DNA of 64,000 nucleotides from Branchiostoma lanceolatum (taxonomy: Eukaryota; Chordata; Leptocardii; Amphioxiformes; Branchiostomatidae), in assembly GCF_035083965.1 (NCBI RefSeq), contig NC_089732.1:14428424-14492423 (forward strand), written 5' to 3'. Both the position numbers and the translations under genes were made by a program. The notes below the pieces were generated by a model. It saw only the letters and a program-made list of their open reading frames with translations, was not told the origin of the DNA and searched no databases. The first letter of the stretch is position 1, and the number at the start of each line of letters is the position of its first letter. Shown here piece after piece: positions 27,001 through 30,000 of the stretch.

Positions 27001-30000
27001 TTTTCCTTTATAACCGCGACAATTATTTGTTTGAATTAGGTGCCGTCTTGTTCATACTTACATGAGCGCGACTGTTTAAAGAAATCTTAGTCGATATGGT
27101 TTCAAAGGCTTCTACCAACACAAACGCCATCTTTCCTACTCCTATAAACAATATATACAACAAGCGACCGAGACCTTGGTCCCTAAGCGTATATGACCCG
27201 TTTACCTATAGGAAATGTTGCGTTCTTATGTTATTTCTTCATTGTAAAGTTTTTTCCTTTATAACCGCGACAATTATTTATTTGAATTAGGTGCCGTCTT
27301 GTTCATACTTACATGAGCGCGACTGTTTAAAGAAATCTTAGTCGATATGGTTTCAAAGGCTTCTACCAAAACAAACGCCATCTTTCCTACTCCTATAAAC
27401 AATATATACAACAAGCGACCGAGACCTTGGTCCCTAAGCGTATATGACCCGTTTACCTATAGGAAATGTTGCGTTCTTATGTTATTTCTTCATTGTAAAG
27501 TTTTTTCCTTTATAACCGCGACAATTATTTGTCTGAATTAGGTGCCGTCTTGTTCACACTTACATGAGCGCGACTGTTTGAAGAAATCTTAGTCGATATG
27601 GTTTCAATGGCTTCTACCAAAACAAACGCCATCTTTCCTACTCCTATAAACAACATATACCACGAGCGGCCAGGACCAGTTGCTCTCTAAGCGTATATGA
27701 CCCGTTTACGTATAGGAAATGTTGCGTTCTTATGTTATTTCTTCATTGTAAAGTTCTTCCTGCATAACTGTCGAAAATTACTCGTGTGAATTAGGTGCCG
27801 TCTTGTTCACACTTACATGAGCCCGAATGTGTGAAGAAATCTTAGTCGATATGGTTTCAAAGGCTTCTACCAAAACAAACGCCATCTTTCATACTCCTAT
27901 AAACAACATATACAACAAGCGACCGAGACCTAGGTCCCTAAGCGTATATGACCTGTTTACCTATAGGAAATGTTGCGTTCTAATGTTATTTCTTCATTGT
28001 AAAGTTTTTTTTCCTTTATAACCGACAAAATTATATGTCTGAATTAGGTGCCGTCTTGTTCACACTTACATGAGCGCGACTGTGTGAAGAAATCTTAGTC
28101 GATATGGTTTTAAAGGCTTCTACCAAAACAAACGCCATATTTCCTACTCCTATAAACAATATATACAACGAGCGGCCGAGACCTTGGTCCCTAAGCGTAT
28201 TTGACCCGTTTACGTATAGGAAATCACGTTCTAATTTTATTTCTTCATTGTCAAGTTTTATCCTGTATAAATGCGTAAAATTTGAAAATTTTGATCACTA
28301 TGGAAAAGATATTCATCTAGATGATGTTGGAAACGCTATGTATCATCAAGGGCAAATAATTTAGAACGCGCTTTTGAGAGAAGTCGTAAGATGTTTTCTT
28401 CGGACTGATGGTGACGACCTATTTTGAATGGAAATCGGAAAACGAGCACGACGTGTTAAATTATGTAGTGCGGAAAATTGCACATTGTACTTTTTCCGTC
28501 AGTTTAACCAAGGACCAAGGAGGTTCTTTATAAAACCTCCTTGGTTTAACTAGACGTGTCTCATGGAGATGAACTCGGAGGACCTCTCTATCGGAAAAAA
28601 AGCCTTATGGTGAGTGTTGATACATATTTTACTCTGAAACCACATAACAGCAAACAAAGCATAATTTTCTCTTAAATCATTTTTATAAAATCTGTTTTGT
28701 TTTCAACCTGATGATGACACTAAAGCTAAAGCTAAATCTGATTGATTAACAGGCTGCAGAAGCGATACAGATGGGATGACTCGTACTTTCCCGGAGCTAA
28801 CAGTGGAAAAGTGACACCCAAGGTACCGGTGTCGGAAGTTCGTGACGTCTTGCGAAAGGAATATGGGTATATCGGTTGTGGTGAAGCTGGACAAATAGTA
28901 GCAACAGCCTTCCCTAGATGTAAAAGAAGAACGTCTTACAAGCAGGGCAATTGCTATTATGGCATTAACAGGATCACGTCTGCCGAGAGTGGAGCAGACA
29001 ACGCAGACTTGCTCGACAGGCGCCAGGTCAAAGCATTGCAGTCACGGATACTAAGACTTGAAGAGGAGAATGAGACACTACACGCCAAAGTTCGACAATG
29101 CAAGGATGGGAACAGGACTCTTGACGGTAAACTGAAGACATTACAAGCAGAAAAACAGACTTTGATGAGTTCCAGAACTCCGACGAGACGAACGGGAATG
29201 ATACCAGCTTCTTATTGTATAGACAGAACGCTATTATCTCCCGTTCACACACCCGTGGCAAACAATGACATTCTCGGTGAAGGGACATACGGTAGGTGTA
29301 AACTTTACTCCTATCGTGGGAGTAATGTTGCAGTTAAGGAGTTTAAACTGTTGGGATCTGAGGATGAAGTTAAAAAAGATTTAGTTAATGAAGCTAAGGT
29401 TTTGATGAACATATTTACTCACAAGTCAATACCGGCACTTATCGGAGTGGTTATGGATAGTTCACCCTTTCTGTTAATTACGTCCTTTCATGGATTTGAC
29501 CAAGCATCTGTGACTCTGTTAAACGCACTTCACAAGGGCACACGATTCATGAATGTAACGCAATGGAAAGATGTGTTTTGTCAGATAGCGACAGGTCTGA
29601 ACCATGTTCACCGGTGCGGGTTCCTTCACTGCGATTTGAAGCTGAACAATGTTTGTCTAGAGAACAGAGAGGGGACCTTTGTCGCAATCATCATAGACTT
29701 TGGAAAGAGTTGTGAGATTCACAAGCCCACGGGATATCATAATCTTAGTATAAAAGAGAGAGAACGGCGTATCGCTGCTTACCCACACATAGACCCTAGC
29801 CTCTACACCGTTAGAACTAGTGTCCGTTCAGTTTGGACAGACATATATTCGTTTGGTAAGATGGTGGAGAAAGTAGTGGTTAGACTTGACATTGACGATG
29901 GTCAGTTACACACTGTGTGGAAAGAGTGCGTTCATGTTGAGAAGAGCATGCGGCCTTCATTAACGCATGTTGTAAATACACTAGGATCCTAGCTTATGCA

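Follow-up and report, generated by a model that had tools for sequence, protein, structure and literature searches.

In the stretch of lancelet DNA analysed here, 64,000 nucleotides long and referred to as the window, a two-exon gene encodes a protein kinase domain behind an N-terminal domain that is RFX-like at best. We propose that the product is a DNA-tethered kinase, composed of an RFX-like, probably winged-helix domain, a probable coiled coil and a divergent kinase domain, and that its gene is borne by a CACTA/EnSpm-like transposon of about 20.7 kb in an intron of a VWD-repeat gene; we give this reading a probability of about 0.5.

An initial annotation of the window had placed a two-exon gene at 28563..29992, and this model holds: an open frame at 28742-29992 contains exon 2, and a GT-AG intron (28610-28752) joins exons 28563-28609 and 28753-29992 in frame to give 428 codons. 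The gene and its encoded regions are as follows.

28563..28609, plus strand: exon 1 of the kinase gene, from the ATG to the splice donor; the intron splits codon 16, and the junction is kept in the related protein P0001
28602..28981, plus strand, with the intron 28610-28752 inside: RFX-like N-terminal domain, residues about 14-92, from profile comparison and with no Pfam RFX match
28753..29992, plus strand: exon 2 of the kinase gene, with the stop codon TAG at 29990-29992
28997..29170, plus strand: possible coiled-coil or leucine-zipper stretch, residues about 98-155, from Pfam matches and a heptad count
29270..29989, plus strand: protein kinase domain, residues about 189-428 (Pfam PF00069, E 4.5e-22)
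30029..30034, plus strand: putative polyadenylation signal (AATAAA) of the kinase gene

A search of about 5.8 billion proteins with the full kinase protein gave 3,849 candidates and retained two at E ≤ 0.001, namely P0001 from B. lanceolatum (431 aa, 63% identity to the window protein) and P0002 from B. floridae (LOC118418253, 591 aa, 60% identity); both contain all three parts, N-terminal domain, middle stretch and kinase. Among the three lancelet proteins, identical residues occupy 155/243 kinase positions, 37/80 RFX-like positions and 18/66 positions of the linker and coiled-coil region. The joining of the two exons is borne out by gene models, not by transcripts: P0001 crosses the exon 1/exon 2 junction without a gap, and P0002 enters exon 2 at the identical point from a different upstream exon. 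Residues 1-170 of P0002 form this differing, partly low-complexity N-terminus leading into the exon 2 acceptor. With the N-terminal part as query, three of 37 candidates were retained at E ≤ 10, which added P0003, a B. lanceolatum model with the source label FOCAD that opens with the N-terminal part of the kinase protein (99% identity), which reflects either an error in joining the model or the place of the gene in that genome. The remainder of P0003, which carries the FOCAD label, has no Pfam match above cut-off, its best PDB match is not significant (E 0.58), and it has no match in this window. A profile search (6 of 7,485 candidates) contributed three more kinases, P0004-P0006; P0005 and P0006 were assessed from length and Pfam positions alone, while P0004, an unnamed kinase of 481 aa (34% over 56% of the query), is the closest protein found from a non-lancelet source, and the RFX-like part is not recognisable in its alignment.

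These relatives bear on how the gene came to lie where it does. The element could have acquired a single-copy lancelet host kinase gene, whatever its N-terminal domain, by capture or by duplication, and the gene could have no role in transposition. This might be suggested by the number of annotated full-length proteins, one in B. lanceolatum and one in B. floridae, where a mobile gene would be expected in many copies, and by P0003, whose kinase N-terminal start puts the gene there apparently beside or in a different gene; its FOCAD-labelled part is unmatched in the window. However, the differing neighbourhood of P0003 also fits mobility, and annotation pipelines often mask repeats, so that copy number in a protein database is not copy number in the genome. 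We regard such a passenger gene, the main rival of our reading, as quite possible, if somewhat doubtful. For the transposon itself, the following features are relevant.

12169..12392, no strand assigned: short 224-bp element in the host gene region, with the TIR CTCTYACTGGACCC as in the large element
21998..22222, plus strand: left terminal region, with the TIR block at 21998-22025 and an inner block at 22196-22222; the roughly 170 bp between them resemble the element at 12169-12392
22661..28282, no strand assigned: tandem array of a 251-bp unit, 22.3 copies, between the left end and the kinase gene
30681..34181, minus strand: CACTA/EnSpm-type transposase gene, plausible exons 34181-33947, 33520-33435 and 33305-30681, 981 codons
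35423..40890, plus strand: third gene between the ends, plausible exons 35423-35680, 37432-37505, 37746-37852, 39685-39794 and 40513-40890, 308 codons
41526..42497, no strand assigned: tandem array of a 164-bp unit, 5.9 copies, between the third gene and the right end
42605..42660, minus strand: right terminal region, with the TIR block at 42660-42633 and an inner block at 42631-42605

The transposase gene adjoins the kinase gene on the opposite strand, and its 874-codon open frame matches Pfam Transposase_21 (Tnp2, PF02992) with E 4.3e-15 and 55.9 bits (cut-off 28.6); the full exon model was picked by eye among 540 frame-compatible splice combinations. According to PMC12730594, CACTA transposases have acidic catalytic residues and a C(2)C plus H(3-4)H arrangement between the second D and the last E, and candidate motifs placed by eye in the lancelet protein (D262, CAADIP, CSKC, HLHCH and FSFE) occur in that order. 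The third gene (one exon model picked among 4 frame-compatible combinations) has no match in Pfam.

The ends of the element were revealed by a wider inverted-repeat scan (253 pairs, no shuffle control) followed by an unrestricted left-right comparison of the window, in which 21998-22025 pairs with 42660-42633 and 22196-22222 with 42631-42605 as collinear inverted matches, giving terminal inverted repeats of 28 + 27 bp at 86-89%. Narrow scans near the genes gave shuffle-like counts (9 vs 1-12; 8 vs 0-11), and a scan requiring exact CACT...AGTG ends gave nothing convincing. The summed score of the collinear pair, 70.2, exceeds the maximum of 56.6 in Markov nulls (0/100 reach it; wider regions, both arrays excluded), and in none of 300 Markov nulls of flanking regions picked post hoc did the best or the second-best match equal the observed one; dispersed repeats lie outside both kinds of null. 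Four matches to the TIR core pattern occur in the window (0.07 expected), two by construction and two as the ends of the 224-bp element. The core of the inner block also has four matches (0.37 expected), of which two follow from its construction and the others, at 21607 and 45974, have 2/14 mismatches. A tandem array lies just inside each inverted end, and the 251-bp and 164-bp arrays are possibly subterminal repeats of the element. The short element aligns along 12392-12199 with 21998-22199 (80% over 202 bp) and may have arisen by deletion within the large element's family, which would have joined a left end of this type to a right TIR. In addition, a near-perfect palindrome with arms of 55-58 bp is found at 36417-36631 within the large element, and MITE-like inverted repeats are found to its right (43158-43339, 45552-45644 and 45868-46254), one of them with CCACGGCACGAA, which resembles the inner block.

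The surrounding sequence belongs to an FCGBP-like gene spanning 7107-21873 and 42865-44912, which encodes an IgGFc_binding domain (Pfam E 4.6e-77) followed by repeated VWD, C8 and TIL units (the TIL label by eye). Two host segments flank the element.

21748..21873, plus strand: host match, found by tblastn with the second VWD unit (E 9.4e-7), to the central part of the third VWD domain; exon end at 21870
42865..43011, plus strand: next host exon, encoding the end of the third VWD domain (Pfam VWD, E 4.6e-11)

Both exons encode parts of one VWD domain, the third, and are separated from the inverted ends by 127 bp on the left and 204 bp on the right. In the first VWD unit the corresponding intron position falls in one unbroken frame and in the second the intron measures 688 bp (16830 to 17517), whereas in the third, with splice positions at 21870 and 42865, it measures 20,994 bp, of which the region bounded by the inverted ends takes up 20,663 bp, leaving 331 bp. 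An intron of this size, nearly filled by the element, provides good evidence for entry of the kinase together with inserted DNA, whether in a single step or in more than one. Elsewhere in the window, an exon at 49616-49915 encodes a C-type lectin domain (Pfam E 2.8e-8), and the translations of 9507-10091 (plus strand) and 60451-60753 (minus strand) share long identical pieces, probably those of a dispersed repeat.

Arrival in several steps would be expected if each inverted end were the remnant of its own insertion, on the left a truncated short element and on the right another, with the kinase in a patchwork between them; since 202 bp at the left end match the short element at 80%, the two ends may stem from different insertions. 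CACTA/EnSpm elements were taken to have CAC..GTG (or CA..TG) termini and a target-site duplication of 2-5 bp; the left end reads CACTGG and the right CATCGG, and no duplication of 2, 3, 4, 5 or 8 bp is found at 21998 or 22002 paired with 42656 or 42660. The near-matches of the inner-block core at 21607 and 45974 also fit separate insertions. Against these points, the inner block is common to both ends and does not appear in the alignments of the short element with the right end, the terminal pair is collinear beyond any of the 100 nulls, the short element itself appears to be a deletion product with a left end and a right TIR of these types, and only 331 bp of the intron lie apart from the element. 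We consider separate insertions rather unlikely. The earlier description of the gene as encoded within a transposon is supported by the inverted ends, the Tnp2 frame and the placement in an intron, and is tempered by the missing duplication and by this rival; we hold the transposon part of the proposed fusion-in-transposon arrangement with moderate confidence.

For the N-terminal domain, the RFX fold assigned initially to residues 16-87 survives as a similarity between profiles together with the YYGI end (CYYGI at residues 83-87), and not as a Pfam assignment: PF02257 gives no match at E ≤ 10 for the N-terminus of the window protein, P0001 or P0002 (HMMER filters remove most weak matches), nor at E ≤ 1 for exon 2 alone, and the isolated domain has no match in NCBIfam, PHROGs or Pfam as a whole. 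An RFX-type profile built from three PDB-derived domains, RFX1 (1dp7), RFX5 (8zjr) and ARID2 (7vdv), aligned by hhalign across 65 columns with the N-termini of all three lancelet proteins, at a score of 28.2 (pairwise E 7.1e-5, probability 63), which none of 200 column shuffles reached (maximum 18.8; reversed profile 13.2). Taken one by one, RFX5 scored 31.5 (probability 81), RFX1 15.5 and ARID2 13.9, against at most 13.1 for five other winged helices and at most 14.9 for 18 unrelated segments; RFX1 and ARID2 being near background, the profile similarity is mostly due to RFX5. When the lancelet N-terminal profile was compared with the PDB by HMMER, RFX5 came sixth of 8 hits and was not significant (E 1.9).

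Besides the profile-level similarity along the domain, the lancelet and RFX-type domains share a G..(I/V)V...F core and the YYG(I/L) end, and in the window and B. lanceolatum proteins also a WL...Y start. The lancelet domain differs in its fusion to a kinase, its shorter wing and the absence of RRLGxRGxSKYHY; of the wing signature RRLGxRGxSKYxYxG, as read from 1dp7 and 8zjr, the YYGI end alone is present. We conclude that a remote kinship to RFX is probable, and hold the RFX-like part of the fusion with weak to moderate confidence. The domain could instead be another small domain, with a convergent likeness at YYGI, which would agree with the lack of any database match for the isolated domain, the weak matches of RFX1 and ARID2 alone and the non-significant rank of RFX5; in view of the RFX profile score, which 0/200 shuffles reach, and of RFX5 alone at probability 81 where the other domains tested lie at background, we consider this improbable. 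A Pox_D5-type primase domain was tried as a source of the N-terminus and rejected, with 35 segments of the phage P4 primase (one phage protein, which contains a Pox_D5 domain) scoring at most 14.5.

The stretch between the two domains possibly forms a coiled coil: it has coiled-coil and bZIP matches in Pfam, all under their cut-offs, and in the best phase of a simple heptad count, made without a control, 10/17 a/d positions are hydrophobic.

The kinase domain scores 79.1 bits against PF00069, well above the curated cut-off of 31.7, which confirms the kinase assignment by profile; we hold this part of the fusion with strong confidence. The motifs of the window protein start at residues 191 (GEGTYG), 208 (VAVK), 227 (VNEAKVL), 308 (HCDLKLNN) and 331 (DFG). 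In common with eukaryotic protein kinases (PF00069/PF07714), the lancelet protein has the glycine loop, VAVK, the alphaC Glu, HxDLKxxN, DFG and DxYSFG, and the catalytic Lys, the alphaC Glu, the Asp of HxD, the Asn and DFG are invariant in all three lancelet proteins. It differs from them by HCD in place of HRD (Arg to Cys) and DPS in place of APE (Glu to Ser), again in 3/3 lancelet proteins, while P0004 has HND and APE at the counterpart positions. The catalytic set previously called intact is thus kept in Lys, Glu, Asp, Asn and DFG, and altered in HRD and APE; catalysis is likely, not certain. HxDLKxxN is the Ser/Thr form of the kinase motif, from which the domain may be of Ser/Thr type; most of the best PDB sequence matches (among the best 60 listed) are tyrosine kinases such as Eph receptors and BTK, and P0001 carries the name tyrosine-protein kinase, so that the Ser/Thr call stands on this one motif. 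That the domain is a pseudokinase or poorly active, the protein acting as a DNA-bound scaffold, would fit the altered APE and HRD residues in all three proteins and is nevertheless unlikely, given the retained Lys, alphaC Glu, catalytic Asp, Asn and DFG and the fact that activity is common among non-RD kinases.

The components of the element have partial counterparts in known systems. SmTRC1, an animal relative of CACTA elements, combines Tnp2 with TIRs and tandem repeats, and 7/14 of its copies showed 2-bp duplications (PMC1636069). The lancelet element resembles such animal CACTA/EnSpm (TRC) elements, as far as the accessible text of PMC1636069 describes them, in its Transposase_21 (Tnp2) gene, TIRs and internal tandem repeats, and differs in its size (about 20.7 kb, compared with about 4.7, 5.2 and 9.2 kb for three examples), in the added kinase and third genes and in its ends, which lack the SmTRC1 CCC core and have no target-site duplication found. 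Fungal TET-bearing IS3EU families, in the excerpt of PMC12730594 at hand, are DNA transposons that carry a kinase gene in opposite orientation to the transposase, as here; theirs encodes an alpha-kinase and not an ordinary protein kinase, the transposase is of another superfamily, and that excerpt mentions no DNA-binding fusion. No account of an RFX-kinase fusion was found among the entries listed by keyword searches of open-licence PMC full text. The Acanthamoeba genome has 22 RFX genes, with no RFX-kinase fusion named in the part of the paper available (PMC4053784), and the terms CACTA, EnSpm, kinase and CMC are all absent from a paper on transposable elements of amphioxus (PMC5802833). A scan of viral contigs gave 120 pattern matches, of which 0 were confirmed.

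In the proposed model, the kinase protein would dimerise via the coiled coil and bind DNA via the winged helix, and the DNA-bound kinase would phosphorylate proteins at the bound site, free of RD-type control through the activation loop. In the life of the element, it could modulate the transposase, or chromatin or repair proteins at the element's ends or promoters, and in this way might benefit the element. We put forward only tentatively, and as a rather unlikely extension, that this is an animal transposon's own DNA-tethered kinase, conserved across lancelets, which directs phosphorylation to element or host chromatin and so controls transposition or silencing. A role in regulating transposition or host signalling, as first suggested, would be speculative. 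In a sequence scan, X-box near-sites (≤ 1 mismatch) were not enriched, with one in the element among 6 in the window; X-box arrays within the tandem repeats were considered and rejected, the arrays containing zero near-sites.

To our knowledge, few proteins join a transcription-factor-type DNA-binding domain and a protein kinase in one chain. If functional, the lancelet protein would bring phosphorylation straight to selected sites on DNA, and the element would be a compact animal case of a selfish element bearing its own signalling enzyme. With a bounded element, an open transposase frame and related lancelet genomes in existence, it provides a testable system for the idea that a mobile element may encode a DNA-tethered signalling enzyme of its own.
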